Positions 9,247 to 28,944 of a DNA stretch of 64,000 bases are shown here, piece by piece. Below the pieces are notes generated by a model, which worked only from the letters and a program-made list of their open reading frames with translations, had not been told where the DNA came from and did no database searches. Both the position numbers and the translations under genes were made by a program. Within the stretch, counting starts at the first letter, position 1. Every line of letters starts with the position of its first letter. The DNA is from Acidobacteriota bacterium (GTDB lineage: Bacteria > Acidobacteriota > Vicinamibacteria > Vicinamibacterales > UBA8438): contig VXRJ01000018.1 in assembly GCA_009838525.1 (NCBI GenBank), forward strand, positions 397,087-461,086. Reading direction: 5' to 3'.

Positions 9247-9795
9247 TCAACGGGCAAGGACGCGACGGGCGCCGCTTGCCGCCTCGGCAGCGCGAGCCGC
9301 GATTTGTTCATCCGTTAGCGTGCTGAGCGGGTGAGTGATGGCCACCGGCTCGAGGCGCTCGGCCCCGAGCGCGGTTCGCTGCACGTCAGCTTCGTGAAGA
9401 AAGGCGTCGGTGACCACGACAGCGGTGGGAACGCCCCGTCTCTCCAACCCGACCGCGTCGTGCAGACTGCACGACGTGCAGGACCCTCAATCGCCTATCG
9501 CGGTGATGACCGCATCGGTCTCCCGCGCTATCCGGTCAAGCAACTCCGGATCCGCGGTGCGCGAGAAGCTCTCCTTCGCGTAGCGTCTGATCTCCGCGAA
9601 GTTGGTGTCTTCCTGCAGCCGCGTGACCGTCTCGCGGAGCAACTGCGAAGCGTTCCACTTCGTGTTGTCGAGGACGCCCAGGCGGATGCCGGCGAGCGAC
9701 TCGAGGCGCGGCGCAAGCGCCTGGGGCTCTGCCGTCACCGTCCCGCGCGGGTCGTAGACGATACGGCCGTCCGGGCGGCGTCTTTCAGTCGCCAT
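9247..9795 (-). CDS. UGSC-family protein read through an in-frame UGA (probable selenoprotein)
   Basis: The frame from ATG 9795 (alternative 9840) runs to TAA-free UGA at 9489-9487 and continues in the same frame for 79 more codons to a stop at 9247. Reading that UGA as selenocysteine (U103) gives TAIGDUGSCTSCSLHDAVGL, the signature that names the UGSC family, a group of small predicted selenoproteins. The part after UGA is essential to the fold (RGVPTAVVVTDAF, then a helix), so this is not a short protein with a random tail. The family has a thiol/selenol redox-type site (U, two Cys) but no proven reaction. A hairpin directly follows the UGA. An upstream in-frame YDPRG segment matches family N-termini. 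A sense codon after a sequencing error is the alternative, but a second such gene at 32967 argues against it. Confidence 0.85.
9456..9489 (-). promoter_or_regulatory. UGA codon with SECIS-like hairpin, UGSC gene 1
   Basis: On the minus strand the UGA (9489-9487) is followed after 10 bases by a perfect 9-bp stem, CGTCGTGCA, loop GUC, UGCACGACG (9476-9456). The loop GUC occupies positions 20-22 after the UGA. As I recall the Escherichia coli fdhF element, its GGUC loop lies at 19-22 and is also flanked by GCA and UGC. Bacterial SelB binds such an element inside the coding region to recode UGA. Seen: the stem and register. Inferred: SelB binding. Confidence 0.75.
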
Positions 9796-9868
9796 CAGTC
9801 GGTAGGGAACTGCCGAGGCGACGCGCTCAAGTCGCGGCACTCACTTCGTTCCGTTCGCCTTCGCCTCA

Positions 9869-12800
9869 TCACCGGCCATGGACTGCCTGATAGTGCTCGA
9901 TTTCAAGCTCACGCTGCTTCCGCCCGCCCATTATCTCAGCACCTCGTTCTCCGATCTGCACAATGCGCCGATCGACGTCATTGAGCAGTGTCTCGAACGC
10001 CCGTTGCCATTCTGCCCACATTTCGCTCATGGGTCCGGACCAGGAATAGGAACGTCCCAGGGCGGCATAGACGATGTCGTCGACTGAATAGCCCTTTCCG
10101 AGAGCAAGCAGGGCCCTTCCGCGCCAGGTCTTGCACGGTTTGCCGGCAAGCGGAGCGAGGTGGCATTCGGCAAGCTCGCGCCTATCGAGCAATTCTCGAT
10201 ACAGATCAACGTCGGTGGCCACAAGCTCCTTCACCAACTTCTCGGCACGACAGCCCGAACGCAGTTCTGCCAGTACCCTGGCCCGCTGCGGAGCATCCAA
10301 TACAGGCACGAGCTTGACTGCGATTCCCTCCAGCCTCCACGAGCCGTTGCCATCGTCACGCCGACCGAACTTCGAGACCAGCCACTCTTCCGCCAAACGC
10401 GTGTTCCTTGACAGAATCTCGCCTAGCCAGTACTCGTCGTGCTGAGAGATCTGGCCCTCATCTGCTGGCGCTCGGAGAATCGCCTGTCGCCAACTGTCAT
10501 AAAGTTTACGGCCGCGTTCAAGCCCACCATCCGCAAAACGGTGTTTCTTGTACTCCTCCATGTTCACAATGCGCAGGCACATGCAACACACGGCCGCTTC
10601 AGCCACAACCTCGGCGCCGCAATACGAGCATGTTTTCTTCGGCTCGTCGCCTGCACGTCGAATGGCGTGCCCGCACCAATGTCCGATGGCTGCCGCGACG
10701 GCGAGCCGAGCATCCGCGGAACAGAACATCTGAAGGAGCGTCGCCCGGGGTACTTCCTTCCTAAGGCACCACGTGTCGACACTCCTCGCGTAGTCTCCCG
10801 CCGCACCCAGAGCAATCGAAAGAAGCTCCGGTGGTGGTTCGGGGTGCGTGGTCGTAGCGTAGAGTCCGAGCCCACGAAGGCTGTCATCATCGAGGCAGCG
10901 ACGAAGGATTGCCTCCCACCGTGGCTGGGCCGCATTGGCCGCCCGAAGGACGAATGGTCCGACCAGGTCGGCAGGCAGCCCACCTTCCATAAATCTCTCG
11001 GCCACCGCTGCGGGGTCGCGAACACGTTTGGCGAGTCGCGCGCACAGATACGGCGACCAGCGAGGGTAGCTGATGCTCGCAAGATCCGCCTCTGACTCGA
11101 TCCACGCAAGCCTCCTTGTCATTTCCTCAACGGGTCTGCGCTCCCAAGGCTCCAGAATGCTGTCTGGTGGACCGTCCGTCATCATCTTCATCTCGTCATC
11201 GACTTCAAGGTTCTGATGCAGCGCCTCGAACTCGGGATCGAGAGTCACGTCGATGTTCAACCCGGCTAGCTCCGCGGTTCCCTTCAGTTCGTGTTGAAGA
11301 CCGGGATGCTCGCTGGAGATGTCGGCGAGATCCTGGATCAACCGCTGCGCGAAAGTCAGCACGTCGTTTCGTACGTTGTCCGGGATGCCTAGGAGATGAT
11401 CGAACGGGTAGTGCACCCAGGCAGAAACGAGGCTCAGCAAGTCGTGCCATGGGGTCTCAGAGTCGTCCAAGTCACGCAGGACACTGAGCATCGATTCCCA
11501 CAATGCCGTCAAGTCTTCAACATGACGGTGACCGAGAGTTCCGAAGTGGAGACGGATTCTTCGCCCACGACCTGGATCGGTCGTCGCGAATTCAGACTTG
11601 GGGTTGAGCGCGATGCACATTGCACGAAGCGCGGTTCTTGCATCTCCACCATCGCGGCGCCAAAGATCTGCTACGCGGGACAACGCGGATCTCCGATAGG
11701 ACCAGTCTTCTCGGGTCGGAGACAGCCGAGTCGCCCATTTCGCCAGAACGTCCAGCGGGTCTCTTGACAAAAGGTCTTCGGGACGCGAGCCGTCCATTCT
11801 GCTCACTTGGTCGAGCAGCAACGGGATCGCCGTCTCCGGTGCCTGTTCGAGAACATCTTCGGCGACTTCCAGAAGCCGGTGCGGGCGGCGGTCAATCACG
11901 TCTCGCGCTTCCGCCGGCCCAAGGGATGCGTATTCGGCCCAGAGCCGCGACGATTCGTCCACCGGCAGCCGCGCATCCGCTCGCTCCAGTCGCTCTGCGA
12001 GGTCGGGAATCGAGGCGCCCCGCGAACGAGCACCAATCAACGTATCCAAAGCGTCCGCCTCGTTGCTGACGATCTCCAGAAACTGATCGAGCGGCAAAGG
12101 GGCAACACTTCCGAAGAACACGCGTTGCACTAGTACCCACCGCATCGGCGATGGGTCCACGGACACGCCGACGCGCGTCTTCCTGACCGGTGTGCCATCA
12201 TCCCCGGTTTCGAGGATTGACGTTCGCGATTCCTGAACGATCCCGGCTGCCGCCAATTGCGTAAGGTCGTTGCTCAACTCTATGAGCGACGTCCCAAGTG
12301 CTTCTGCAACGGTCTGCGCTGGGGCGCCGGCATTGCCACCGAGTGCGAACGGCGCCAGGAGTTTCTGTGTACGGAAACCTACCAAGCGGTCTAGCTGCGA
12401 GACCAATTGATCGACCAGTTCGTCCCCGCTTACGACTCGCCGGATATCGCCCGCGAGACAGAGATGCGCTAGCGTTGCTGCAAGCCCGGGTCGTCCCGCC
12501 GCCTGTTGACGAATCACGCGGAGCAGGTCGTCCGGTCCGCCAATCCCCACCGATTTGATGATCTCAATCATCGTGTCGGCATCGATCAACTCGAGATTCA
12601 GGACCTCGGAGTCCGGAACCTGCAACGCGTGCTGGACGGCAACGGCCTCGCCGGGCCAGCTCGTCGCGATGATGCGGACATCAGAACCCACTTCCTGCCG
12701 GATCTGGATGAATCGCACAATCGCGTCGGGATCGACGTGCGCGTCGTCAATGATCACGGCCGGTGGCTTAAGGGTCCGGAGGTCGTTCGCGATTTGCTCT

Positions 12801-13648
12801 CGGTCATCATCAACCTTGAACAGTGCCTGGCCCTGCAAGACCAAGGCACGCAGCAGGAACGTCTTGCCCGATCCCGGTGCGCCCACCAGAAGGCGGTCAC
12901 CTGGTTGCTCCTGAAGCCAGCGCGTTTCGCGCTCGCGTCCGAGGATCCGATCGCCAAGGACCGGCCGTCGAGTGATAGGGAAAGGACTCAATGCGCGCGG
13001 CCGCCCCGTTAGTCGGAGTAGGCGTTTACACCAAACAGGTTCCGCATAGAGGCGTTGAGCAAACCAGTCCTGCTCGTAGATCTGCAAGAGCTTCACGCCG
13101 ATCTCGCCCGCCGTCGCGCGCAGCTTCTGGCGCATGTGCGACGTCACCCGTCTGGAGGTCGCGAATAGCGCGCGATCCAACGTTGCCTGCTTGCGTTGTG
13201 CCCGCTTCAGATTCTCACGGAGATTCCCGGTCAGGTTCCTCGCGGTCGTGACAACGAGCGGGAAGGGCTCTTCGCTGGCGCCATCCGCAACTGCACCGTC
13301 AAACCCGTCGTCTCCACCGCCGGCGACCGGCACAACGCGCGGCCAGTCGCGTCTGAGGAGGTCCACGGCACACGTTTCGAAGACACTCGGGTCCAATGCT
13401 CCATTCAGTGCGTCGACGATTGCTCCGTGGTGTGGATCGAGCACGACACCAAGCGGACGCGAGACCGCCCTGCCCGATGAGCCTGACCGTGCAGCAGCAT
13501 CCAAACGCTCGGCCGCCCAGCCGGGGATGCCGAGCTCGCCTCGCTCCCAGCGAGCGAGCGTGTTCGGCACAACGCCGACGGCTTCTGCGAGTGCCGCCTG
13601 CGTGAAGCCAAGGCGAGAGCGCAACGACTTCAGTTCTGCATTTGTCAT
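9869..13648 (-). CDS. HTH, nuclease-like, STAND NTPase and zinc-ribbon defence protein
   Basis: A 1259-residue multidomain protein. Residues 1-55 are an XRE-type helix-turn-helix (GFTQAALAEAVGV, then NTLARWERGE). Residues 65-180 look like a PD-(D/E)xK nuclease-related domain: E91, then GGDDGFDGAV (113-120) and the strand PLVVTTA (130-136). The expected ExK is not clear there, so activity is uncertain. Walker A GAPGSGKT (256-263) and Walker B VIIDDAH (298-304) start a STAND-type ATPase, followed by some 650 mainly helical residues with WD-rich stretches. A CxxC...CxxC zinc ribbon (CSYCGAE, CCMCLRIV) lies near 1005-1025. Such proteins typically sense phage components and fire a nuclease. It is divergent from the helicase operon, and the HTH may control both. 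I know no named system with exactly this order. Confidence 0.75.
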   Translation of the reverse strand: MTNAELKSLRSRLGFTQAALAEAVGVVPNTLARWERGELGIPGWAAERLDAAARSGSSGRAVSRPLGVVLDPHHGAIVDALNGALDPSVFETCAVDLLRRDWPRVVPVAGGGDDGFDGAVADGASEEPFPLVVTTARNLTGNLRENLKRAQRKQATLDRALFATSRRVTSHMRQKLRATAGEIGVKLLQIYEQDWFAQRLYAEPVWCKRLLRLTGRPRALSPFPITRRPVLGDRILGRERETRWLQEQPGDRLLVGAPGSGKTFLLRALVLQGQALFKVDDDREQIANDLRTLKPPAVIIDDAHVDPDAIVRFIQIRQEVGSDVRIIATSWPGEAVAVQHALQVPDSEVLNLELIDADTMIEIIKSVGIGGPDDLLRVIRQQAAGRPGLAATLAHLCLAGDIRRVVSGDELVDQLVSQLDRLVGFRTQKLLAPFALGGNAGAPAQTVAEALGTSLIELSNDLTQLAAAGIVQESRTSILETGDDGTPVRKTRVGVSVDPSPMRWVLVQRVFFGSVAPLPLDQFLEIVSNEADALDTLIGARSRGASIPDLAERLERADARLPVDESSRLWAEYASLGPAEARDVIDRRPHRLLEVAEDVLEQAPETAIPLLLDQVSRMDGSRPEDLLSRDPLDVLAKWATRLSPTREDWSYRRSALSRVADLWRRDGGDARTALRAMCIALNPKSEFATTDPGRGRRIRLHFGTLGHRHVEDLTALWESMLSVLRDLDDSETPWHDLLSLVSAWVHYPFDHLLGIPDNVRNDVLTFAQRLIQDLADISSEHPGLQHELKGTAELAGLNIDVTLDPEFEALHQNLEVDDEMKMMTDGPPDSILEPWERRPVEEMTRRLAWIESEADLASISYPRWSPYLCARLAKRVRDPAAVAERFMEGGLPADLVGPFVLRAANAAQPRWEAILRRCLDDDSLRGLGLYATTTHPEPPPELLSIALGAAGDYARSVDTWCLRKEVPRATLLQMFCSADARLAVAAAIGHWCGHAIRRAGDEPKKTCSYCGAEVVAEAAVCCMCLRIVNMEEYKKHRFADGGLERGRKLYDSWRQAILRAPADEGQISQHDEYWLGEILSRNTRLAEEWLVSKFGRRDDGNGSWRLEGIAVKLVPVLDAPQRARVLAELRSGCRAEKLVKELVATDVDLYRELLDRRELAECHLAPLAGKPCKTWRGRALLALGKGYSVDDIVYAALGRSYSWSGPMSEMWAEWQRAFETLLNDVDRRIVQIGERGAEIMGGRKQRELEIEHYQAVHGR

Positions 13649-13700
13649 ATCCTTGGTATCCCTAAAAAGCTATACTATGCGTATATCATATATCCCGTAC
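13649..13700. promoter_or_regulatory. divergent AT-rich promoter region with candidate operator
   Basis: The 218 bp between the divergent STAND gene (start 13648) and the helicase (start 13867) contain an AT-rich block, unlike the surrounding DNA, at 13649-13696. Inside it lies the inverted repeat TATAC-TATGC-GTATA (13671-13685). Such a 15-bp dyad beside an XRE-domain gene is a natural operator for that HTH protein, and it also fits the minus 10 element of a rightward or leftward promoter. Seen: the dyad and AT-richness. Inferred: repressor binding. Confidence 0.5.
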
Positions 13701-13866
13701 GTGCCGACAAGGAGCGACCGGCCAGGCCCTGCAGGACTCGCCTCCGGGGAGCCATACACAGACGGGTACAGTCGAGCATGCGCGGGCGGCACCGACCGCC
13801 GTGAAGGCGACCGGGTGGTACAGTACAGGCCACGAACGAGCGAATGGCGCGCACGTGCCGCTTCCC

Positions 13867-16800
13867 ATGAGTCCCCCGGCGATCCCGTCCGAAGGCCAGA
13901 TCCTGACCGGCCCGCTTTTCAACGAGCCGATGCGCGTGGAAACCGCTTCGGAGACGGGATTAGGCAGTTGGACGCTCGGTCTGGTCGGTACGCAGACGGA
14001 GCGATTTCGGAGGGTCTCGCTCGGGACCGCCGACCTGGCCGGCCTTACAGTTCTTGACAGTGGCTTCCGATACGACGGCGACGGAGCGCTGCTCCGATTG
14101 GGACTTCAGGCCCACGCGCTCGGCCTCGCCTGGGAGTTCGATCCGTACTTCGGGCTGTCGATCTCGCGCGTCGATCCGCTGCCGCACCAGTTGGAGGCGG
14201 TTTACGACCACTTGCTGAAGCTGGCACGCGTGCGATTCCTTCTGGCTGACGATGCTGGGGCAGGCAAGACGATCATGGCCGGTCTGCTGCTCCGCGAGTT
14301 GCAGTTGCGGGGCCTCGCCGAACGCATCCTGATCGTCGCCCCGTCGAACCTCGCGTTCCAATGGCAGCGAGAACTTAAGGAGAAATTCGACGAGACGTTC
14401 CTAGTGATGAAGGGCAGCGACCTGCGCGCCCAGTTCGGCGTGAACCAGTGGATGCAACAGGCGAAGGTGGTGACCTCACTTGATTTGGCCAAGCGTGAGG
14501 ATATCTTGCCCGGATTGCGCCAGACGCACTGGGATCTGGTCATCGTCGACGAGGCGCACCGGATGTCGGCCCGCGACGAGTCCCACAAGAGTCAGCGTTA
14601 CCGGCTGGGTGAGTTGCTGCGGGATTCGTCGGACCACATGCTGCTGCTGACCGCCACGCCGCACAAGGGGGACCCCGACAATTTCTCGCTGTTCCTCCAG
14701 CTCCTCGACCGCGACGCCTACGCCGACGTGCGCTCGATCCGAGAGGCGATGGATGATGGCCGGGCTCCGTTCTACCTGCGGCGCACGAAGGAGGCGATGG
14801 TCTACTTCCCCGAGCGCGACGGTGACGGGAGGTGGACGGCCCGGAAGATCTTCACCAAGCGCATCCCCCGCACGGTGGACTTCGCCATCGACGGCCCCGA
14901 GTTCGAGCTGTACAGCGAGGTGTCGCGGTTCGTGAAGCGCCAGAGCGCCAGGGCTGCGGCTGCGGGCGACACGCCACGCGCGCGCGCCGTTGGCTTCCTG
15001 ATGGCGCTCTACCAGCGGCGTCTGGCCTCCAGCGCCAGGGCCATGGGCCGGAGCCTCGCGAACCGGGCCGTCCGCTTGGAACGCGGGCTCGCCCAGGCGC
15101 AGGATCTCGCCCGCGCTGCGCCCCCGGACCTGCCGACCTCCGACGAGTTGGAGGAGATGGAGGAACACGACCGCGAACGGCTGGAGCGGCTGCTGGACGC
15201 GGTCACGCTGGCGAGCAACGCCGAGATGGTGAGCGAGGAGATCGCCGAGTTGCAGGCGCTGGCCGCCCGGGCGCGGGCGGTCGAGCAGGCTGGCGACGAG
15301 GCGAAGCTCTCCAAGCTCGAAGACTTGCTGCGGGACGAGGGCTTCGTCGATCGGCCGGAACAAAGGCTCGTGCTCTTCACCGAGTTCAAGGACACGCTCG
15401 ACTACCTCGTCGAGACGCTCGAAGCGTGGGGCTTCAGGGTCACGAGCATCCACGGCGGCATGAAACCCGGCAGCCGCGACGAGCCGGGAACGAGGCTTCA
15501 CGCCGAGCAGCAGTTCCGCGACGGCGCGGTCCAGGTGCTCGTCGCCACCGAGGCGGCCGGCGAGGGGATCAACCTCCAGGTCTGCAACGTCCTGTTCAAC
15601 TACGACATCCCGTGGAACCCAAACCGTCTCGAACAGCGGATGGGGCGTATTCACCGCTACGGTCAGGAGAAGGACTGCCTGATCTTTAACTTCGTCGCCA
15701 CGAACACTATTGAAGGGCACGTGCTACAGCGGCTGCTCGACAAGCTTCAGGAGATCCGCGACGCACTGGATGACGATGCTGTATTCAATGTCGTCGGTGA
15801 GGTGCTGCCGTCCGCCCATGTCGAGCGCGTATTGCGCGACTACTACGCCGGCCGGCTCGGCAGCGAGGATCTGGAGGAGCGCCTGCTCCGAGATGTCGAC
15901 GAGGGACGGTTCCGCAACATCTGCCGGAACGCCCTGGAGGGATTGGCGTCGAAGAAGCTGAATCTGGAGATGCTGGTCGAGCGCCGCGCTCGCGCCCGCG
16001 AGCGCCGGGTAGTGCCCGAGACCATCGCCCGCTTTTTGCGGGAAGCGGCGCCGCTCGTCCCTCTGAAGCTCGACTTCATAGGTGGTCTGCCGCACACCTT
16101 CGAGCCGGGCCGCACCCCGTCCTCGTTGCGCCGCCACGAGCGCCAGCCCGACTGGCGCCTCCCCGAGCTGGCCGCCCGTTATCCGCGGTGCAGCACTGAT
16201 CGCGACGCGGCGCAGGAGCACGCTCTCGAATGGGTCACGCCGGGCCATCCGCTATTCGAAGCGGTCCGCCGTCATACCCGCGAGCGGGCGAGCGATCCGC
16301 TCGCCACGGGGGCGACGTACCACTCGCTCGCGCACGATGCGCCAACGCGCATCGACTTCTATCGCGCCCGTGTGGTCGACGGACTCGGCCATGTCGTTCA
16401 CGAGAAGCTCTTCGCTCTGGAATCGGGCGGCGACGGCGACCCGCGAGCGTGTGAGCCGGGCGTTCTCGGCAACCTGACGCCGGCTCCCACGCCGGACGTA
16501 CTGCCGGAAGCCGCGAGGCGGCCGGAGCCGACGGCATGGCTCCAGGAGCACATCCTGACGCCGTTTCTCGAAGACACACGCGCCGATCGACTCGCGGAGG
16601 TTGAGCGTGTCGCGAAGCACGTCGAGTTGTCGCTCACCGAACTGTTGTCGGGGACGGACGAGGAGATCGGACGCGCTGCGGGCGACGTGGAGGCGGGGCG
16701 CCAGGGCGCGGAAGGCCGGCTGGCAATGGCCGAGGCACGGCATGGCGAGTTGCAGGTCCGCCGCGACCGTCGCCGCGAGGAGTTGGGGCGGCAGCGGGCG

Positions 16801-17262
16801 CTCACGCTCCAGGCGGTTGAACGTAGTACCAGCGTGCTGGTGCTGCCGCACCCCGATCGCGCTGCAGCCGAGGTGAAGCGCCACCAGCCCGATCCGGCGA
16901 CCGAGGCGACGGCGATGCGCGTGGTCATCGCGCACGAGGAGTCTCGTGCACGCCGCGTGGAGGACGTGAGCGCCAAGAACGTCGGCTACGACGTGACAAG
17001 CCTCGACCCGGCGTCCGGCGATCTGCGGCTGATCGAAGTCAAGGGACTCGCCGCGCCCACGGGCACGATTCTCCTGACGCCGAACGAGCGCCGTATGGCT
17101 GAGGACCGCCCCGACTGCTACTGGCTGTACGTCGTCACCGATTGTGCCCGGACGCCGGTGCTGAATGAACCGATCCCCGATCCGGCCCGGTTGCCATGGC
17201 ACGAGGTGTCGAAGGTGCAGCACTACTATTTGAACACCGAAGCCATGCTGCGGGGCGAGTAG
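13867..17262 (+). CDS. SNF2-type helicase with C-terminal NOV (DUF3883) domain
   Basis: An 1131-residue SF2/SNF2-like translocase. The start at ATG 13867 fits family N-termini (EGQILTGPLFNEPMRVE); GTG 13801 is the longer option. Walker A is DDAGAGKT near 128-135, motif II DEAH near 228-231, motif III LLTATPHKGD, and the RecA2 motifs (VATEAAGEGINLQ, QRMGRIHRYGQ) near 560-600. A coiled helical insert lies between. Residues about 1025-1095 are the NO VEIN/DUF3883 domain with GYDV and IEVKG, a D...ExK arrangement that could be nuclease-like. DrmD of DISARM and related defence helicases have this plan. It is the first gene of the rightward run with SIR2, DUF1156 and DUF499 and probably moves on phage or modified DNA. 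Confidence 0.88.
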   Translation: MSPPAIPSEGQILTGPLFNEPMRVETASETGLGSWTLGLVGTQTERFRRVSLGTADLAGLTVLDSGFRYDGDGALLRLGLQAHALGLAWEFDPYFGLSISRVDPLPHQLEAVYDHLLKLARVRFLLADDAGAGKTIMAGLLLRELQLRGLAERILIVAPSNLAFQWQRELKEKFDETFLVMKGSDLRAQFGVNQWMQQAKVVTSLDLAKREDILPGLRQTHWDLVIVDEAHRMSARDESHKSQRYRLGELLRDSSDHMLLLTATPHKGDPDNFSLFLQLLDRDAYADVRSIREAMDDGRAPFYLRRTKEAMVYFPERDGDGRWTARKIFTKRIPRTVDFAIDGPEFELYSEVSRFVKRQSARAAAAGDTPRARAVGFLMALYQRRLASSARAMGRSLANRAVRLERGLAQAQDLARAAPPDLPTSDELEEMEEHDRERLERLLDAVTLASNAEMVSEEIAELQALAARARAVEQAGDEAKLSKLEDLLRDEGFVDRPEQRLVLFTEFKDTLDYLVETLEAWGFRVTSIHGGMKPGSRDEPGTRLHAEQQFRDGAVQVLVATEAAGEGINLQVCNVLFNYDIPWNPNRLEQRMGRIHRYGQEKDCLIFNFVATNTIEGHVLQRLLDKLQEIRDALDDDAVFNVVGEVLPSAHVERVLRDYYAGRLGSEDLEERLLRDVDEGRFRNICRNALEGLASKKLNLEMLVERRARARERRVVPETIARFLREAAPLVPLKLDFIGGLPHTFEPGRTPSSLRRHERQPDWRLPELAARYPRCSTDRDAAQEHALEWVTPGHPLFEAVRRHTRERASDPLATGATYHSLAHDAPTRIDFYRARVVDGLGHVVHEKLFALESGGDGDPRACEPGVLGNLTPAPTPDVLPEAARRPEPTAWLQEHILTPFLEDTRADRLAEVERVAKHVELSLTELLSGTDEEIGRAAGDVEAGRQGAEGRLAMAEARHGELQVRRDRRREELGRQRALTLQAVERSTSVLVLPHPDRAAAEVKRHQPDPATEATAMRVVIAHEESRARRVEDVSAKNVGYDVTSLDPASGDLRLIEVKGLAAPTGTILLTPNERRMAEDRPDCYWLYVVTDCARTPVLNEPIPDPARLPWHEVSKVQHYYLNTEAMLRGE

Positions 17263-17362
17263 CTCGACTGCCAAGCTGCTACGACATGAGTGTCCAGGAT
17301 TCAGTGGGTCGGGTCCGGTCGAACGGGCAACTGAGCCCCCGCTGTCCGCGGTCGTTCGCCGC

Positions 17363-19111
17363 ATGATCAATTCAACGGAGTCGCTTGCATTCTCGATGCA
17401 CGCCAATCCCGGCATTTATGCCGTCTTGGCCGGCTCCGGCTTGTCACGGGCGGCCAAGATCCCCACCGGTTGGGAAATCACGCTGGACTTGGTGCGCAAG
17501 CTGGCAGCCGTCCGCCACGAGACGTGCGAACCAGATCCGGAACAGTGGTACCGAAGCACTTTTGACAAAGAGGCGGACTACTCCGACTTGCTGGACAAAC
17601 TGTGTAGGACGTCGGCAGAACGACAGCAGTTGTTGAGGGGCTACATCGAACCGAGCGCGGACGACCGTGAGGAGGGTGCCAAACAGCCGACTGCAGCGCA
17701 CCGAGCTATCGCCGCCCTCGCCGCGAAGGGCTTCATTCGGGTGATCCTCACGACCAACTTCGACCGCCTGATCGAGACAGCATTGGACGACACGGGCGTG
17801 ACGCCGACAGTGCTAACCACGCCGGATCAGTTGCAGGGCGCTCTGCCGCTAATTCACACGCGCTGCTGCGTTGTCAAGTTGCACGGCGACTACCTCGACA
17901 CACGTATCAGGAACACTCAAGCGGAGCTCGATTCGTATTCCGTGGAGTTCGACCACCTGTTGGCTCGCGTCTTCGACGAATTCGGTCTTGTCGTCTGCGG
18001 CTGGTCGGCGGCTTGGGACGGAGCCCTGCGCCAAGCGCTCTACCGTGCACCATCGCGCCGCTTCTCCACGTATTGGACCGTTCGTGGGGAGATCGAAGAC
18101 GAGGCACGGCGCTTGATCGAACACCGCTCGGCCGAGGCGATTACGATCGAGGATGCTGACGAGTTCTTCGGCACCGTTCAGCAACACGTCGAGTCCCTTC
18201 GGGAGTTCACACGACCGCACCCGCTGTCCACCGAAGCGGCTGTGGCGAGCTTGAAGCGCTACTTGTCGGAATCACGGCATCGGATTCGGTTGTCGGATCT
18301 AGTCGACGGCGTTGTTGAGCAAGTCATCTCAGCGACTTCTGGAGAAGGTTTCGCAGCGGACCGTCCGGTACCGAACGGCACAACGGTTACGACGCGCGTC
18401 CGCCGCTACGACGCCGCTGCGGCGACTTTGCTGGCATTGGCGCCGGTCGGCGGCTTCTGGGCGGAGGACGACCATATCTTGTTTTGGCAACGAGCATTGA
18501 GCCGGCTTGGTGCTATGCGAGCGAGCGCCGGTCAGGTGTTCACAATCTGGGAAGCCTTGAAGCGATATCCAGCAACTCTGTTGTTATGCGCGCTGGGAAT
18601 CGGGGCGGTGGAGGCGAATCGGTTGGAGTTCCTAGGGCGTCTCTTGAAGGTCACTCTTCCTGATGAACATCGCGAAGACAAGACAGCCGTACAGCTGTTT
18701 CCCCCATCTCTACTTGCCGATGGAAACGTACAGGAGATGCGGCTACTCAAGGGGATGGAGGGTCATCGCGTGCCGATGAGCGACTGGTTGCACGACGCGC
18801 TACGAACGCCCGTTGCGAGAATCATCCCTGACGACGGTCGGTACACGTTCGTCTTCGACAAACTCGAAATCCTTCTGGCGCTCGGTTACCTCCACGTGGA
18901 ACCAGAGCGCGAATGGGCTCCGGTCGGCGCGTTTTGCTACCGAGACGAAAACAGAAACCGCATCCTGCAGGAGATCGAAGGATCATTGTCTAGGACGCGA
19001 GACAATTCTGAGTTCGTCAGGTGTGGCATCTTTGGCGAAACCGCAGACATGTGCAACCGCCGACTGGCGGCATTGCAGACAACCATTCGCCAATCTCGCA
19101 TGAGGGGTTAG
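17363..19111 (+). CDS. SIR2-domain protein, probable NADase effector
   Basis: A 582-residue protein with an N-terminal SIR2-like domain (about 1-270) and an unassigned, mostly helical C-terminal half. Catalytic-site motifs seen: glycine motif AGSGLSRAAK near 22-31, TTNFD near 130-134 with the NAD-contacting Asn, and KLHGDY near 172 with the active-site His. Defence SIR2 domains hydrolyse NAD+ and kill or stall the infected cell. It lies 100 bp after the helicase and 26 bp before the methylase, all on one strand, so it is embedded in that operon. The C-terminal half may be the sensor or partner-binding part. Codon choice is visibly less GC-biased than in the chromosomal genes around the island. 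Confidence 0.85.
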   Translation: MINSTESLAFSMHANPGIYAVLAGSGLSRAAKIPTGWEITLDLVRKLAAVRHETCEPDPEQWYRSTFDKEADYSDLLDKLCRTSAERQQLLRGYIEPSADDREEGAKQPTAAHRAIAALAAKGFIRVILTTNFDRLIETALDDTGVTPTVLTTPDQLQGALPLIHTRCCVVKLHGDYLDTRIRNTQAELDSYSVEFDHLLARVFDEFGLVVCGWSAAWDGALRQALYRAPSRRFSTYWTVRGEIEDEARRLIEHRSAEAITIEDADEFFGTVQQHVESLREFTRPHPLSTEAAVASLKRYLSESRHRIRLSDLVDGVVEQVISATSGEGFAADRPVPNGTTVTTRVRRYDAAAATLLALAPVGGFWAEDDHILFWQRALSRLGAMRASAGQVFTIWEALKRYPATLLLCALGIGAVEANRLEFLGRLLKVTLPDEHREDKTAVQLFPPSLLADGNVQEMRLLKGMEGHRVPMSDWLHDALRTPVARIIPDDGRYTFVFDKLEILLALGYLHVEPEREWAPVGAFCYRDENRNRILQEIEGSLSRTRDNSEFVRCGIFGETADMCNRRLAALQTTIRQSRMRG

Positions 19112-19137
19112 CAGTCTGCCGGATTGAAAGAAGAGAT

Positions 19138-22100
19138 GTGATTCCTAAAACGTGCAAGCGCCTCGCTGAAGTGGACTTTCCCGTCGCGGTCGTTTCGAAG
19201 CACGCGGCGCGGGAGAAGTCGATCCGCCACGGTCATCCCTCGACGTTGCACCTGTGGTGGGCGCGACGCCCGCTGGCGTCAAGTCGCGCCGTGTTGCTGG
19301 CGCTGTTGCTGCCGGATCCGTGCGATCGGCACTGTCCAGAGGACTTTCTTCGAGTCGCTGCCGACGAGCTCCGGGGGCTCGCCGAACATCTCGTCAAGAC
19401 CAAGGCCGGATCTGAATTGCTGATCGCGGATTTGAAGTCAAACTTGAAGAGCAAGAGGCCGGGAATAAGGGAAGAGGCGGAACGAGAGGCTGAACGTAGA
19501 GCGAGAGTTTGGAACGACCTGTCGTCGGAGAAGGAGCCTTGGCCGCTGATACGGGTTCGCCGCGCGCTGCTGCATCTTCTGGCCCAGGGGGCGGCGTGGG
19601 AGTGGTCTGTTGCCGACCCGTTCCTTAACGTGTCACGCAAACTCGTTAAGGCAGCGCACGGGGAGCACGCTCCACTTGTCGTCGATCCGTTCGCGGGCGG
19701 GGGTTCAATCCCGCTGGAGGCGTTGCGGATGGGGTGTGAAGCGTTCGCCAGCGACCTGAATCCGGTGGCGTGCCTAATCCTCAAAGCTATGCTGGAGGAC
19801 ATCCCCCGCCGCGGTTCTGCCTTGGCCGATGAGCTTCGGAGAGTTGGGGGCGAGATCAAAGCGGTCGCCGAGAAGGAACTGTCTGATCTCTACCCGCCGG
19901 ATCCGGACGGCGCAACGCCCATCGCATACCTGTGGGCGCGGACTGTGCGGTGCGAGGCGCCGAACTGCGGGGCGGAGATCCCGTTGATACGCTCAATGTG
20001 GCTGTGCAAGAAGTTGCGGCGCAAGCGGGCGCTGCGTCTCAGCGTGCAGCGCGACGAGGTCGAGTCGCCGCGGGTCGAGTTCGAGATCTTCGAGCCCAGC
20101 GCGGACAAGGATGTGCGGGCCGGGACCGTGGCACGTGCGAAGGCTGCCTGCGTCTGTTGCGGGTCGGTGCTTCCGCCGGAGCGCGTGCGGGCGCAGCTCG
20201 CGGCTCAACGTGGCGGCGCGGACGTCATCTTCGACGAGCAGGGATGTCGCTCAGGCGGAGCGTTTCTCTTAGCTGTGGTCACGCTCAAGCCGGGCGAGAA
20301 AGGCCGACACTACCGACTGCCGACCGTGCGGGACTACGCGGCTGTGCGCCGGGCTCGGGACCGCGTCGCCAGGATTATCGACGACTGGGAGCGGCGAGGT
20401 CGGAAAGGGCCGTGCCCCGTTCCGGATGAGCCGATATCGCTGAACGAAGTGCGGCGCATCAGTGTGCCGATCTATGGCATGCACACGTGGGGCGACCTGT
20501 TCACATTGCGGCAGAAGGCGGCGCTAGTGGAGCTATGTCGACTGGTTCGTCGACACGATTCGTCAGCACCATCCGCGCTATTACTGGCGTTGAGCGTCAG
20601 TCGCTTTGCGGATATCGCCAACTCCCTTTGTCAATGGGAGAACACAAAGCACCAGGTTCGGCATCTCTTTACTAGGCAGTCAGTTCCGATGCTCTGGGAC
20701 TTTGCAGAAGCCAGTTTTGTCGGCGGACAGGCCGGAGACCACGCTACGACGTTGCGGACGATGGCTCGTGTGGTCGAGCGGTTTTCGGAGAGTCGTGAGC
20801 CAACGCAAGTCCATGGTGCGGATGCAGCTGCCCACCCGCTTCCAGATCAGGCCGCCAACGTCTGGTTTACCGACCCGCCATACTACGATGCGGTGCCGTA
20901 CGCACACCTCGCGGACTTCTTTTTTGTTTGGCTCAGGCGCATAATTCCTGACGATCCCCTGCTTCGCAACTCGTTCGAGTCGAGCAGCTGCACGACACCC
21001 AAAGTGCGCGAAATCGTCGTTGATCGGCCGCATCGCATGAGTACATCCGAGAAAGACGCGGAATCGTACGAACAGGGAATGGCGCGAGCTTTCGCCGAAG
21101 GGCGGCGGGTGCTTCGGGATGACGGCATCGGATCTGTGGTCTTCGCTCACAAGACCACCGAGGGCTGGGAAGCGCTCCTCTCGGGCATGATTAAGGGAGG
21201 CTGGACGCTCACCGGTTCGTGGCCAATCGCCACGGAGATGGATACCCGGCCCAATGCACGAGAAACCGCTTCTCTGGCCACCAGCGTCCACCTAATCTGT
21301 CGTCCCCGCCCAGACAACGCCTTGGTAGGCGATTGGGCCGTCGTCTTGCACGAACTTCCCCGGCGCGTCGGCGAATGGATGGAACGTCTGCAGGGTGAAG
21401 GGATTCGTGGCGCCGATCTCGTCTTCGCCTGCATCGGCCCGGCGCTGGAGATCTTCAGCCGGTACGAGAGAGTTGAGACGGCTGACGGACATGAGATCGG
21501 ACTTCCCAAGTATCTGGAGAAGGTCTGGGAGGTAGTCGGCCGCACCGCGCTGGAGAACGTCCTCGGAGCGGCGGAGGCGCAAGCCCGGAACGGGCTGGCG
21601 GGCGCCCTGGAAGAAGATGCGCGGCTGACTGCACTCTTCCTGTGGACACTCCAGGCGACCAACGGCGAGACGGGCCGAGACGTTGGCGGCAGACCGGTCG
21701 ATGTGGCGGACGACGAGGGAGTGGTAAGCGGCGGGTCCACGAGCTACTCCCTTGTCTTCGACGTGGTGCGCCGCTTCGCACAGCCTCTGGGTATCGACCT
21801 GCCGAGGTGGGAGAACCACACTATTGAAACCGAGAAGGGCATGGTTCGTCTGATTCCGGTCGCCGAGCGTGCCGAGAGACTCTTCGGCGAGCGAGGGGCA
21901 GCTGCTGTCGCCGCATGGCTGGAACAGGAGGTCAATAGCGGTGCGGATGTACTTCAGGGCGTCCTCTTTCCGGACTATGAGGAAGCACCGACCATTGGAC
22001 GGGTGCACAAGAGTGGGGTCGGAGAAACCGCTGAAGTCTCTGCTGTGAAACCCGGCGCCACGACCCTCGACCGCGTCCATACCGGTATGCTCCTCCAGGC

Positions 22101-22257
22101 CGGTGGGCAGACTAGCGCGTTGCGGGCACTGGTGAAGGCCGAGCGCGAGCGCGGCCCGGATTTTCTGCGCCTGTCGAATGCACTGTCCGCACTCTATCCG
22201 GCGGGTAGCGAGGAAAAGCGGCTGCTTGATGCGATGCTCTTGACACTCCCGAAGTAA
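19138..22257 (+). CDS. DUF1156 DNA methylase (anti-phage associated)
   Basis: A 1039-residue putative DNA amino-methyltransferase. GTG 19138 is preferred because it has a purine-rich ribosome site and begins just before the conserved KRLAEVDFP start; the GTG at 19021 would overlap SIR2 by 90 bases. Conserved family block: HGHPSTLHLWWARRPLASSR, residues about 30-50. SAM motif I is DPFAGGGSIPLEAL near 183, and the catalytic motif IV is DPPYYDAVPY near 579. Two Cys pairs (CEAPNCG; CVCCG) suggest a zinc ribbon in the middle. NCBI names many such proteins anti-phage-associated DUF1156. It would mark host DNA so that the helicase complex spares it. It precedes the DUF499 ATPase by 167 bp. Confidence 0.88.
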   Translation: MIPKTCKRLAEVDFPVAVVSKHAAREKSIRHGHPSTLHLWWARRPLASSRAVLLALLLPDPCDRHCPEDFLRVAADELRGLAEHLVKTKAGSELLIADLKSNLKSKRPGIREEAEREAERRARVWNDLSSEKEPWPLIRVRRALLHLLAQGAAWEWSVADPFLNVSRKLVKAAHGEHAPLVVDPFAGGGSIPLEALRMGCEAFASDLNPVACLILKAMLEDIPRRGSALADELRRVGGEIKAVAEKELSDLYPPDPDGATPIAYLWARTVRCEAPNCGAEIPLIRSMWLCKKLRRKRALRLSVQRDEVESPRVEFEIFEPSADKDVRAGTVARAKAACVCCGSVLPPERVRAQLAAQRGGADVIFDEQGCRSGGAFLLAVVTLKPGEKGRHYRLPTVRDYAAVRRARDRVARIIDDWERRGRKGPCPVPDEPISLNEVRRISVPIYGMHTWGDLFTLRQKAALVELCRLVRRHDSSAPSALLLALSVSRFADIANSLCQWENTKHQVRHLFTRQSVPMLWDFAEASFVGGQAGDHATTLRTMARVVERFSESREPTQVHGADAAAHPLPDQAANVWFTDPPYYDAVPYAHLADFFFVWLRRIIPDDPLLRNSFESSSCTTPKVREIVVDRPHRMSTSEKDAESYEQGMARAFAEGRRVLRDDGIGSVVFAHKTTEGWEALLSGMIKGGWTLTGSWPIATEMDTRPNARETASLATSVHLICRPRPDNALVGDWAVVLHELPRRVGEWMERLQGEGIRGADLVFACIGPALEIFSRYERVETADGHEIGLPKYLEKVWEVVGRTALENVLGAAEAQARNGLAGALEEDARLTALFLWTLQATNGETGRDVGGRPVDVADDEGVVSGGSTSYSLVFDVVRRFAQPLGIDLPRWENHTIETEKGMVRLIPVAERAERLFGERGAAAVAAWLEQEVNSGADVLQGVLFPDYEEAPTIGRVHKSGVGETAEVSAVKPGATTLDRVHTGMLLQAGGQTSALRALVKAERERGPDFLRLSNALSALYPAGSEEKRLLDAMLLTLPK

Positions 22258-22424
22258 GTGATCAGGCAGTGAGACGAAGAGATCTCCAGCGGGATTTCAA
22301 GAACAGGAACTTGATTGACGGTCCACGCGGAAAGGTCTGCTCGACGCACTTGGGTGGACAGACGACGACAGGCAACGACGCATGCTGGGGAACAGGCGTC
22401 TCTGCCGGAGGTAGTACGTAGATC

Positions 22425-25229
22425 ATGACACTTGAGCCCTGGTACAAGGTGGTGCTTCCGCGCCGGGAGGTGCGCGAAGGACGCTCGTTCAATCCCGACG
22501 AGTTCGCTATCGCCCTGGAACAGGTAGTCGCCGGTACGGCGCCGTCGGACTATCGCGATCCTGAGGCGTTTTTCGACCGCACTTGCTTCACCCGGGCATT
22601 GCGCGACCACACGGGCATGGTTCTGCGACGTTTAGCTGGAGAGACCGCAAACACGGCACCGGTGATGACGCTGGTGACGCAGTTCGGCGGCGGCAAGACC
22701 CATACGCTAACGGCGCTCTATCACCTGGTCACGGCGAGCGACCTGCTAGAAGACCGGGAGGAGGTGAGGTCGTTGTTGCACGAGGCGGAGCTCTCGGCCG
22801 TGCCGGCCGCTCGGGTAGCGGTGTTCGTCGGCAACGCATGGGATCCGAGCGAGGGACGCGAGGCTCCTTGGATCGATGTCGCCCGCCAGCTCGCTGGTGA
22901 TCGAGGCGTCGAGCTACTCGGGGCGCAGGCGGCAACGACGCCGCCAGGGACCGAAGCCCTTGGGCGGGTGTTCGCGGCAGCAGGCGCTCCGGTGTTGGTG
23001 CTCTTCGACGAGGTGCTCAATTTCGTCAATCGCTATCGTCCGATGGCCGACGCTTTCCATGCGTTCATCCAGAACCTGACAGTGGCCATGACCGGCAGGA
23101 CTCAAGGGGCGGCCGTCATCAGCTTGCCGCGCAGCGAAGTCGAGATGTCCGACTTCGATCTGGCGTGGCAGGACAAGATCACCAAGGTCGTCCGCCGCGT
23201 CGCCAAGGATCTGTTGGCGAACGACGAGACGGAGGTGAGCGAAGTGGTCCGGCGGCGCCTGTTCGACGATATTGGTCGGGACGGCCTTCGAACAAGAGTC
23301 TCGAAGGCGTACGCGGATTGGTGCTTCGAACGCCGGGAGCGGCTTCCGCCGGAATGGACGCTGGTGGACAGCGCCGCTACCGAGGCTAAGGCGAGAGAGC
23401 ATCTGCGGGCGCGCTTTGAAGCCTGCTATCCCTTTCATCCGGCCACACTGTCGGTCTTTCAGCGGAAGTGGCGGGCGCTGCCCCAGTTCCAGCAGACGCG
23501 CGGGACATTGGCGATGCTGGCTCAGTGGATCTCGTGGGCGCATCGTGACGGCTTCACCGGTGCACGCACCGAGCCGCTGATCACCCTCGGCTCTGCGCCG
23601 TTGGAGGTTCCCGACTTCATCGGCGTCGTTCTCGGCCAGCTCGGCGAATCGCGCTTGTCGACAGCCATTGAGGTCGACATCGCAGGCGCTCAAGCCCACG
23701 CACGGGCACTGGACGGCGATACAAAGGCTGCTCTCCGCGACGTTCACCGCCGGGTTGGGACCTCGATGCTGTTCGAGTCCTCCGGCGGGCAGGTCGACAA
23801 GGTGGCGCATCTGCCGGAATTGCGCTTTGCGCTGGGCGAGCCGGCGGTCGACACGACCTCAGTCGACGCTGCGGCGCTGGCGCTGGAGGAACGGGCCTAC
23901 TTCCTGCGTCGCGTGGGAACGGACGGTTTTCGAATCAGCTACCGGCCGACGATCAAGAAGGTAGTCAACGACCGGCGCGCCTCGCTCGACGAGGATGACG
24001 AGATCCGGCCGTCTGTCCGTAGCTTGGTCAGGGACGACTTCGACAGAGGCGCGAGCATTCCGCGAGTGCATTTCCCGGCCGACTCGGCGTCGATTCCGGA
24101 CACGCCCAAGCTGACGTTGGTGGTGGTGGGTCCTGAAGTGGAATGGACGGGCACCGCCGGAGACGTGCGTGAGCGGATCGCAGAATGGACACGAACCCGC
24201 GGCGCATCGCCCCGGCGGTATCCGGGAGCGCTCGTTTGGGCCGTCCGGAAGCCCGGCCGCGGATTGCAGGACAAGGTGGAGCAGTGGCTTGCGTGGAAGC
24301 GTGTCGCTAGAGAGGTCTCCGCGGGGGCGCTTGGGAGTGAGCTTGATACGGCGGACCGAGCCGAGATCGGAGGAAAGGTACGCGAGGCCGTCGAGGCCGC
24401 CCGAGAGGAGGTGTGGGGTGACTATCGCTTCATCGTCTTCGCCGACGCCTCGACGGCGGACGGACTGGAGGTCATCGACCTCGGAGCCGGTCACTCCAGC
24501 AGCGCGGAGAGTCTCTGCAGTCGCGTCATTGGGGCGCTCAAGTCGAGCGCTCGTCTCAACGAATCGGTCGGTGCAGGATACATAGAACGTAACTGGCCAC
24601 CAGCGTTCAAGGATGGTGGGACGTGGCCGCTGGACAGCCTGCGCCAGAGCTTTCTCGATGGCTCGCTGACACGCCTCGTGGACCCTGACGCCGTGCTGCG
24701 CAGGAAGGTCGTCGAGTGGGTGGCCAACGGAGACTTCGGGCTCGGCTCCGGCCTGCACACCGACCGGCCCGAACGGGTGTGGTTCCGGCAGGCGGTTGCC
24801 TCGGAAGAAGTGTCCTTCGATTCGGGTGTTTGCCTGTTGACCAAGGGTCGAGCTGGAGTATTGAAGGCTCCGCCAGCACCCAAGGGGGAAACACCGGTCG
24901 AACCGGCCCCCGGCAAGCAAGATCCGTCCGGCGCCACTGCGGATTCGGAGCCTGCACCGGGAACGTCGCCCGAACCACAGCCGCCTGAACCGCCCGAGCC
25001 AAGGGTCGCGACGCTTCGTTTGCATGGCTACATTCCGGCGGAGATCTGGAACCGCGTCGGCACCCGGTTGATCCCGAAGCTCAGGGCTAGCTCCAGTGAT
25101 GGCCTGAGAGTAAACGTGGCGTTCGAGTTGACCACGAGCGAACGGGGAGCTGATGCGCTGCTGACCGAAGTGCGTCAGATTCTCGACGATCTGCGCCTCA
25201 CCGAGCAGGTGCGCATAGATGCAGGGTAG
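22425..25229 (+). CDS. DUF499 ATPase (anti-phage associated)
   Basis: A 934-residue P-loop ATPase. Walker A is TQFGGGKTHTLTAL near 85-98, Walker B is VLVLFDEVLNFV near 190-201, and an arginine-rich segment follows, as in the DUF499 family. Residues about 815-862 form a proline-rich linker that separates the ATPase from a small C-terminal alpha/beta domain (LRLHGYIPAEIW to the end). The start ATG 22425 has GGAGG 13 bases upstream. DUF499 proteins are nearly always next to DUF1156 methylases and helicases in phage-defence islands, so it is probably the motor or clamp of that complex. The gene is intact and is the last of the four-gene run. Confidence 0.88.
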   Translation: MTLEPWYKVVLPRREVREGRSFNPDEFAIALEQVVAGTAPSDYRDPEAFFDRTCFTRALRDHTGMVLRRLAGETANTAPVMTLVTQFGGGKTHTLTALYHLVTASDLLEDREEVRSLLHEAELSAVPAARVAVFVGNAWDPSEGREAPWIDVARQLAGDRGVELLGAQAATTPPGTEALGRVFAAAGAPVLVLFDEVLNFVNRYRPMADAFHAFIQNLTVAMTGRTQGAAVISLPRSEVEMSDFDLAWQDKITKVVRRVAKDLLANDETEVSEVVRRRLFDDIGRDGLRTRVSKAYADWCFERRERLPPEWTLVDSAATEAKAREHLRARFEACYPFHPATLSVFQRKWRALPQFQQTRGTLAMLAQWISWAHRDGFTGARTEPLITLGSAPLEVPDFIGVVLGQLGESRLSTAIEVDIAGAQAHARALDGDTKAALRDVHRRVGTSMLFESSGGQVDKVAHLPELRFALGEPAVDTTSVDAAALALEERAYFLRRVGTDGFRISYRPTIKKVVNDRRASLDEDDEIRPSVRSLVRDDFDRGASIPRVHFPADSASIPDTPKLTLVVVGPEVEWTGTAGDVRERIAEWTRTRGASPRRYPGALVWAVRKPGRGLQDKVEQWLAWKRVAREVSAGALGSELDTADRAEIGGKVREAVEAAREEVWGDYRFIVFADASTADGLEVIDLGAGHSSSAESLCSRVIGALKSSARLNESVGAGYIERNWPPAFKDGGTWPLDSLRQSFLDGSLTRLVDPDAVLRRKVVEWVANGDFGLGSGLHTDRPERVWFRQAVASEEVSFDSGVCLLTKGRAGVLKAPPAPKGETPVEPAPGKQDPSGATADSEPAPGTSPEPQPPEPPEPRVATLRLHGYIPAEIWNRVGTRLIPKLRASSSDGLRVNVAFELTTSERGADALLTEVRQILDDLRLTEQVRIDAG

Positions 25230-27120: not shown

Positions 27121-28944
27121 ATGAGTACGTTCGACAGCACGAAGGCTTCGCTGAGCGATCTTCTTCAGCAGATCAAGGAGGGTCGGATCCAGTTGCCGGA
27201 CTTCCAGCGGGGCTGGATCTGGGACGACGACCATATTCACAGCCTACTCGTGAGCATCGCTCGTTCCTTCCCGATCGGCGCCGTGATGCTCCTTGAGGCC
27301 GGAGGCGAAGTCCGCTTTCAGACACGACCGGTGGAGGGTTTGGAGGCGAGAGTTCCGGAAGATCGCGTGCCCGAGAAGCTGATTCTCGACGGGCAGCAGC
27401 GCCTCACGACGTTAGTCCAAGCTCTCTCGCTTGACGAGCCGGTGCGTACGCAGACCGCGAAACGCAAGAAGATCAAGCGCTACTACTATTTTGACATTCA
27501 GCAGGCGCTGGCCGCACCGAACTCCTTGGACGACGCCGTTGTGGCCGTGGACGAGAATCGACAGGTGCGAAGCGATTTCGGCCGGCGAGTGGATCTCGAC
27601 CTGTCAACGATCGAGTTGGAGTGCCAGCGCTTGCACTTCCCGTGCAATCAGATCATGGTTTCGGATGACTGGGAGGCCACTCTGTACCGCGTGGCACCTG
27701 AACGGTTCGCTACCTACATGGAGTTTCGCGGCCAGGTTCTCGCCGCTTTTCGTACCTACCAGATCCCTGTCATCGAGCTACAGAAGGAAACCTCCAAAGA
27801 GGCGGTCTGTTTGGTCTTCGAGAAGGTGAACACCGGCGGTGTACGTCTTTCGGTGTTCGAGTTAATCACGGCCACCTACGCGGCGGACGGCTACAACCTC
27901 CGCGACGATTGGTTCGGGTCAGGGGCGCGCAACGTCGAATCCCGCAAGGAGCGCATTGGTCGGGACGCACTCCTTGAAGGGATCGAGGCCACAGAGTTCC
28001 TCCAAGGAGTCAGCCTGCTGCGTACACACGAACTCCGACGGGCGGACCTCGCCAGCGGCAAGATTGGAAAGCAGGTACGACCGGTCAGCGCCAAGCGCGC
28101 CGACATCCTCCAACTGCCACTCGGCGCTTGGAAACGGTGGGCGGATGAGCTGGAGGCGGGGTTTCGCAACGTCGCGCGCTTCCTGCGTAAGCAGTACTTC
28201 TACAGCCAGCGGGAGCTGCCCTATCGCACGCAACTGGTCCCGCTGGCAGCGGTGCTCACTCGCCTGGGTGACCGTTGGCTCGAGCCTCGAATCTACGACA
28301 AGTTGACGCGCTGGTTCTGGTGCGGCGTACTCGGTGAGCTGTACGGCGGTGCCGTCGAGACTCGCATGGCCAACGACTATGAGGAGCTTCTTGGCTGGTT
28401 CGAAGACGACGATGCCGTGCCGCGAACAGTGCGCGAGGCTAGCTTCCAGCCGGATCGCTTCGACACTCTGCGCTCGCGGCTGAGCGCGGCGTACAAGGGC
28501 ATTAACGTGCTCGTCCTTCGCGAAGGTTCTAGGGACTGGTACTGGAAGGCTGCGATTCGGGAGCTAGATGCCGACGAGATCGCTCTCGACATCCACCACA
28601 TTTTCCCGCGGGACTGGTGCGAAGGGCAGAGGCCGAAAAAAATCGAGAGGAATCGCTACGACAGCATTCTCAACAAGACTCCCATCTCCTACAAGGCGAA
28701 CCGCAAGATAGGCGGCGAAGCCCCGTCCCGTTACCTGCCGAAGCTCCAGAGCGAGAAACACGTCCGTCTGAACGACGGTGAGATGGACGAGTTGTTGGCC
28801 AGCCACGCGCTCGCGCCAGATCTGCTGCGGCGGGACGCGTTCGATGAATTCGTCGATGACCGTCGTAGGCGACTCAGCCGACTTGTCGAGATGGCAATGG
28901 GAAAGCCGGTTGTTCACGTGTCCGACACGGCGGCCTACGACTAG
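27121..28944 (+). CDS. DUF262 protein with C-terminal HNH-like nuclease domain (GmrSD/BrxU-like)
   Basis: A 607-residue protein. The N-terminal DUF262 (ParB-like NTPase) domain shows LPDFQRGWIWDDDHI near 25-39 and the hallmark ILDGQQRLTTLV near 88-99. The C-terminal half has a His-Asn nuclease pattern, DIHHIFPRDWC near 490 followed by ILNKTPISYKANRKIGG near 514-530. This is the DUF1524/HNH layout of type IV modification-dependent enzymes such as GmrSD and BrxU. Such enzymes cut phage DNA with modified bases using NTP hydrolysis. It follows the gene-free stretch and has its own leader, so it is probably a separate defence unit. It converges on the unknown protein: both stops use the same CTAG, overlapping by four bases. 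Confidence 0.85.
   Translation: MSTFDSTKASLSDLLQQIKEGRIQLPDFQRGWIWDDDHIHSLLVSIARSFPIGAVMLLEAGGEVRFQTRPVEGLEARVPEDRVPEKLILDGQQRLTTLVQALSLDEPVRTQTAKRKKIKRYYYFDIQQALAAPNSLDDAVVAVDENRQVRSDFGRRVDLDLSTIELECQRLHFPCNQIMVSDDWEATLYRVAPERFATYMEFRGQVLAAFRTYQIPVIELQKETSKEAVCLVFEKVNTGGVRLSVFELITATYAADGYNLRDDWFGSGARNVESRKERIGRDALLEGIEATEFLQGVSLLRTHELRRADLASGKIGKQVRPVSAKRADILQLPLGAWKRWADELEAGFRNVARFLRKQYFYSQRELPYRTQLVPLAAVLTRLGDRWLEPRIYDKLTRWFWCGVLGELYGGAVETRMANDYEELLGWFEDDDAVPRTVREASFQPDRFDTLRSRLSAAYKGINVLVLREGSRDWYWKAAIRELDADEIALDIHHIFPRDWCEGQRPKKIERNRYDSILNKTPISYKANRKIGGEAPSRYLPKLQSEKHVRLNDGEMDELLASHALAPDLLRRDAFDEFVDDRRRRLSRLVEMAMGKPVVHVSDTAAYD

Follow-up and report, generated by a model that had tools for sequence, protein, structure and literature searches.

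Nuclease Avs proteins recognize terminase or portal, and then kill by cutting both phage and host DNA (PMC12931631). Avs4 is built from an N-terminal Mrr-like domain, a STAND NTPase, and a long C-terminal repeat region. Little is known of how bacteria keep lethal STAND or NLR-like sensors quiet yet ready. Here we describe P0001, a protein of 1259 amino acids encoded in a 64,000-nucleotide stretch of an Acidobacteriota genome (assembly GCA_009838525.1, contig VXRJ01000018.1, positions 397,087 to 461,086; the whole stretch is hereafter the window), in which the same order of domains follows an XRE helix-turn-helix (HTH). With a probability of roughly 0.6, we favor the reading of P0001 as a STAND immune sensor that resembles Avs4, stands alone, and regulates itself. 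A built-in operator-binding domain would be a short and testable answer to the question of control, with a 15-bp site, an HTH, and an ATPase that can each be mutated separately.

XRE-type regulators have been described in settings that resemble parts of this design. In the C protein-restriction enzyme fusions, a restriction enzyme is joined to an XRE-type controller that acts at its own gene's promoter, and one such fusion, CR.NsoJS138I, is active both as a regulator and as a nuclease (PMC3850674). These fusions are short, catalytically active type II enzymes paired with a methyltransferase, whereas in P0001 a STAND sensor follows, the nuclease motif is lost, and there is no paired methyltransferase; a search around the family members found no constant methyltransferase partner. 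The XRE-family repressor CdxB silences the toxic, CARD-NLR-like ATPase system lypABC (PMC13236601), much as is proposed here for P0001, but CdxB is a separate protein of 132 amino acids while the repressor domain of P0001 is part of the STAND protein. RptR, another repressor from defense islands, binds a different, 6-bp palindrome (PMC12255303).

Domain architecture and the lost nuclease motif

The open reading frame (ORF) of P0001 starts with ATG, occupies 9869..13648 on the minus strand, and is a real gene, with one full-length copy in its own genome and matching relatives in others. From the N-terminus, the protein consists of an XRE HTH, a domain with an Mrr-like PD-(D/E)xK fold, a STAND NTPase, a winged helix, and a long helical solenoid. 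An earlier note on this DNA, made from the letters alone, had read XRE, PD-(D/E)xK-like, and STAND domains in a single protein of this length, and the ORF, Pfam, the structural model, and the relatives all agree. The note also knew of no named system with this order, and none is found in Pfam, PADLOC, or NCBIfam. Sequence searches of the PDB, with the single protein and with a profile, returned generic P-loop and HTH matches only.

The nuclease-like domain spans residues 72-202 (13043..13435, minus strand), for which the N-terminal model predicts the succession a-b-b-b-a-b-a-b of an Mrr-like fold. The fold search and the Pfam model Mrr_cat point the same way: Mrr_cat matches the isolated P0001 domain with E=0.0032, that of the relative L025 with E=0.0022, and six of the seven family domains tested with E between 0.002 and 0.25, all under the curated Pfam cut-off. 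Furthermore, a model of the restriction endonuclease-TIR proteins associated with pAgo matches the four HTH-bearing members (E from 8.6e-5 to 5.3e-4). Most VIA-align and Foldseek matches of the N-terminal model are to its NTPase domain, and the assignment of the nuclease-like domain to Mrr is tentative, since another nuclease family may fit it.

Despite this fold, the acid and the lysine of the (D/E)xK motif are gone in all eight aligned sequences. Where the motif would lie, as the third core strand closes, the family has VTT, ITT, VTS, CTI, or similar residues, and the window protein has V132-T133-T134 (13247..13255, minus strand), so that the note was right in seeing a VVTT strand in place of ExK. 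T134 is invariant (8/8), as are D113, D117, and N142. A canonical PD-(D/E)xK nuclease is thus unlikely in this family, judged from the aligned residues; an altered active site or a role in binding nucleic acid is possible. One version of the favored reading, which concerns its output step only, would keep the domain an active nuclease by relocating catalysis, with D113 and D117 binding metal and a basic residue at position 152, in the following helix, replacing the lysine. The two aspartates are invariant, position 152 is K or R in 8/8 sequences, and both the Mrr_cat and the pAgo-associated models recognize the domain, but it contains no invariant lysine anywhere, the ExK acid is missing too, with V132 in its place in the window protein, and the acidic residue of helix 1 is a glutamine in L025. 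Relocated catalysis is therefore conceivable but doubtful. A literature search on the active sites of pAgo-associated restriction endonucleases found nothing.

The STAND NTPase extends from about residue 217-234 to residue 410 (12419..12949, minus strand). It features a GAPGSGKT Walker A motif (K262/T263), a VIIDDAH Walker B motif (D301/D302), and a GRPGLA motif; G256-K262-T263 and D301-D302 are invariant, GRPGLA is present in most members, and a winged helix follows. The protein thus has the marks of STAND NTPases: Walker A, an hhhhDD Walker B, a GxP motif, and a winged helix. The NTPase fold is NB-ARC-like, and its best structural matches, at Z about 10, are plant resistosomes (NRC4 among them), together with EfAvs5 and AVAST5. 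The winged-helix segment (residues ~427-497; 12158..12370, minus strand) is seen in the model and has a weak HTH_Crp_2 match at 445-477. The remainder of the protein, residues 500-1255 (9884..12151, minus strand), is modeled as a HEAT-like alpha-solenoid, presumably the sensor, with a mean pLDDT of 79.6 and mostly >85. It has HEAT-repeat matches and resembles HEAT-repeat proteins in structure, where helical matches at Z <13 may reflect merely a common arrangement.

A zinc-ribbon-like stretch, also named by the note, does exist at residues ~997-1041 (CSYC...CCMC; 10526..10660, minus strand), with a weak Pfam match (E=0.23) and a modeled pLDDT <50. However, it is an insertion into the solenoid of the window copy only, no relative with coverage there has it, and it was rejected as a defining part of the system.

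The best Foldseek match to residues 1-545 is Avs4 (8dgf), with E=4e-8 over about 530 columns. In VIA-align, model residues 76-411 align with Avs4 2-400 over 297 residues, with a root-mean-square deviation (rmsd) of 18 that stems from a different placement of the domains relative to each other; the match thus rests on separate domains in order. P0001 shares with Avs4 the succession of Mrr-like domain and STAND NTPase, and its C-terminal repeat solenoid is predicted with high confidence. It differs from Avs4 in the XRE domain in front, in the loss of the intact D...(D/E)xK active site, in having no sequence match to any Avs model, and in length (1259 amino acids versus 1534-1541 residues in the Avs4 chains). 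In its proposed working P0001 resembles Avs4 combined with a C-protein fusion, but since neither the nuclease motif nor a sequence-profile match is present, it is not filed here as an Avs member.

A sparse family with a conserved candidate operator

A genome scan found four relatives of P0001, L002-L005, with 44-47% identity in the alignment, three of which align over nearly the whole length. L002, L003, and L005 come from an alphaproteobacterial, a gammaproteobacterial, and a Pseudomonadales metagenome-assembled genome (MAG), respectively; L004 is from an Acidobacteriota MAG and was also reached as G451, placed in the phylum of the window. L005 has lost the HTH, and its ORF is cut by the contig end; a different contig of that genome holds the missing C-terminus. 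The HTH part is lost at L005 9809-9968, where the gene of an ATPase (PDC-M28B) ends just upstream; the genome also lacks the operator described below. A profile search of 396 genomes from the window's phylum gave matches in 9 genomes, among them long HTH-less relatives with ~29-31% identity (L025 in G384, L026 in G301, and L027 in G234). Among 162 genomes of the window's own order, a full-length family member occurs in the window's genome only. Samples of 321 and 349 proteobacterial genomes, drawn by class and by phylum, gave no family matches beyond the starting genomes, and a search of plasmids and viral contigs gave no relatives and thus no sign of carriage by phages or plasmids. Because matches are few in each order or phylum sample and absent from plasmids and viral contigs, the family is sparse and scattered.

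The XRE domain of P0001 covers residues 4-52 (13493..13639, minus strand), with the recognition helix NTLARWERGE. It matches Pfam HTH_31 (E=1.6e-7), is recovered by profile alignment, and has a predicted fold (residues 1-57) that superimposes on 2ox6 with Z 9.5 and an rmsd of 1.8 over 57 residues. The XRE fold is accompanied by a conserved palindrome at the predicted promoter region of the protein's own gene. In the window this candidate operator, TATACTATGCGTATA (on the gene strand TATACGCATAGTATA), lies at 13671..13685, 23-37 bp upstream of the ATG, and the genome (4.3 Mb) has no second exact copy.

Each of the four genes whose HTH is intact has an exact TATAC-N5-GTATA upstream. It begins at -37 from the start codon in the window, at -38 in L002 (TATACGATACGTATA), and at -42 in L004 (TATACGTTGCGTATA), and in these three lies within 23-42 bp of the start codon. 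Spacers and flanks differ from site to site, which points to selection on the half-sites. In L003, a TATAAT hexamer stands about 12 bp after the palindrome, and a 67-codon ORF that is not seen in the other members (MKNIKHVKFSLYLPNGKF...; L003 9707-9910) lies between operator and STAND gene. By pattern search of whole genomes, the palindrome is single-copy in three of the four genomes with an HTH-bearing gene (G000, G516, and G517), while in the fourth, G451, one of three copies stands at the family gene. Genome G518, in which the HTH is lost, lacks the palindrome, as do G384, G301, and G234, the genomes of the HTH-less relatives. A reversed control pattern has no copy in any of these eight genomes. 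Ten further genomes, about 50 Mb in all, hold 7 palindrome sites versus 5 control-pattern sites. The background can thus be estimated as of order one per 10-20 Mb, at which four of four sites within 400 bp of the genes would be very improbable by chance, with the reservation that kinship among the four genes keeps them from being fully independent.

This tight association, in which HTH-bearing members have the palindrome and HTH-less members do not, suggests that the HTH is most likely a true autoregulator that has been joined to an Avs-like sensor. The earlier note had held that an N-terminal HTH would allow the protein both to regulate and to attack; the regulatory half gains support from the palindrome, whereas attack is unproven, the canonical catalytic residues being missing.

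Of the seven additional sites, four are at XRE genes that stand alone and encode an NTVARWER helix; these genes are in G080, G292, and G197. One of them belongs to an IetA locus (L022 1459-1700, in G080), where a separate XRE protein of 71 amino acids, which shares 51% identity with the HTH of P0001 in the alignment, has TATACN5GTATA directly upstream and is followed by the AAA+ ATPase IetA, with no fusion of the two as in P0001. The most economical reading of these sequences would be a portable XRE-operator module whose fusion to a STAND protein took place in one clade, and the recurrence of the operator at free-standing XREs, one of them in an IetA locus, suggests a shared control module moving between defense systems. 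HTH gain would be the direction of change, as inferred from the HTH-less relatives, and not from a rooted tree. Other large XRE fusions recur in the phylum sample: L058, L062, L064, L065, L067, L068, and L069 carry an N-terminal XRE with an SFVTVNRWE or STITVHRWE helix on large SNF2-helicase-looking proteins (LLADDAGAGKTIM motif), and none of the helicase-like fusions (L058, L062-L069) has the palindrome. Four proteobacterial XRE matches outside the family (L074-L077) lack it as well.

Proposed function and alternatives

The genes around the relatives change from one to the next. L004 adjoins Avs2, L002 a KAP NTPase (PDC-S20), L005 PDC-M28B, L026 Gabija and a dCTPase, and L027 a type II restriction-modification pair, while the neighbors of L003 are, as judged by eye, mostly housekeeping-like. 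Because the neighbors change in this way, P0001 is a stand-alone system, as is the case for Avs proteins, and not a fixed part of the operon that adjoins it in the window. An immune role against viruses is probable.

At rest, two XRE domains would bind TATAC-N5-GTATA over the promoter of their own gene and keep P0001 scarce, as the conserved operator suggests. Upon infection, by analogy with the Avs family, a phage protein would be bound by the C-terminal solenoid, whereupon the NTPase of the STAND module would switch with ATP and oligomerize. The output is the least certain step: the clustered Mrr-like domains may act on nucleic acid and so stop the infection, either as an unorthodox nuclease without (D/E)xK or as a pseudonuclease that grips nucleic acid. 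Conservation of a nuclease fold without its catalytic motif raises the question of how the protein acts on phage. A more tentative extension, which we regard as unlikely, is that a triggered and oligomerized STAND module releases the HTH from the operator and thereby derepresses the sensor, and possibly the divergent operon too. If true, such self-derepression would unite in one protein the recognition of patterns, the action of an effector, and a transcriptional feed-forward.

Several observations weigh against a self-regulated, Avs4-like sensor. Residues 60-215 contain no invariant K, R, E, or H among the eight aligned sequences, which makes the output uncertain. P0001 matches no Avs model in PADLOC at E<=0.1, although this library recognizes the Avs2 next to L004 with E=0. 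Nor do the best PDB sequence matches to a profile of the N-terminal half include any Avs chain. With regard to the operator, the palindrome of L003 (TATACGCGCCGTATA) is not adjacent to the gene, lying 385 bp upstream with the 67-codon ORF intervening; the related XREs L055 and L061 have no palindrome; and two of the palindromes in G451 have no XRE found nearby. A consensus scan of window positions 13500-14000 found no sigma-70 promoter and no terminator, and the overlap of operator and promoter is for this reason one that we infer. Also, the full-length members with an HTH number just four here.

Much of the same evidence could be read as that of an ordinary signal-responsive transcription factor with XRE and STAND domains, similar to the MalT- or AfsR-like regulators. 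In such a protein, binding to DNA would be under the control of ATP and a cellular ligand, the nuclease-like domain would be a relic that binds DNA or has a structural part only, and there would be no immune effector. Such a factor would account for a functional-looking HTH with its operator, for the loss of the canonical nuclease residues in all relatives, and for the single operator in three of the four genomes, which is compatible with a dedicated local regulator. We nevertheless consider it improbable. HTH-less members keep the rest of the protein, which indicates that regulation is not the core function; the neighborhoods consist mostly of defense genes; the order of folds matches that of Avs4; and the only predicted target of the factor would be its own gene.

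The divergent Hma operon and other neighbors

P0001 faces a defense operon, as the earlier note had stated. The operon, at 13801-25229 on the plus strand, is Hma (helicase-methylase-ATPase), a described candidate system (PMC8565338), with a SIR2 protein inserted. Its first gene encodes HmaA, an SNF2/DEAD helicase with a NOV_C domain (13801..17262; PADLOC HmaA E=8.5e-169, NOV_C E=7.8e-19), followed by the SIR2-domain protein PDC-S65 (17363..19111; E=2.8e-207), the DNA methyltransferase HmaB (19021..22257; E=3.6e-116), and the DUF499 ATPase HmaC (22425..25229; E=3.8e-92). The position of the SIR2 gene between HmaA and HmaB makes this an unusual four-gene Hma layout.

The note had further suggested that P0001 might belong to the system of this SNF2-NOV operon, to be checked by co-occurrence. 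Although adjacent and divergent in the window, P0001 is not among the three genes of Hma, and no relative adjoins Hma in the stretches examined; the protein stands apart from Hma elsewhere, which by the note's own test speaks against membership. That P0001 is instead a regulator or accessory of Hma, switching HmaA-SIR2-HmaB-HmaC on or off through the shared intergenic region, is very unlikely: the divergent genes have a single operator between them, the HTH looks functional, and HmaC occurs, as a raw count, in 4 of 11 family-holding genomes, but HmaC is adjacent in the window only and located away from the family gene in the other genomes, the neighbors of the relatives differ each time, HTH-less relatives exist, and the operator lies 23 bp from the STAND gene's ATG versus at least 115 bp from the HmaA start.

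Past Hma, the defense island is carried on by a GmrSD-family protein (27121..28944, plus strand; GmrSD_N E=6.4e-31). On the other side, a minus-strand ORF at 9487-9840 lies downstream of the STAND gene, and the minus-strand ORFs that follow look metabolic by eye (7222-8529 is LarA-like). On the plus strand at 8601-9208, a small ribbon-helix-helix-like ORF precedes a PIN-domain-like ORF, a pair that has the look of a VapBC-type toxin-antitoxin.

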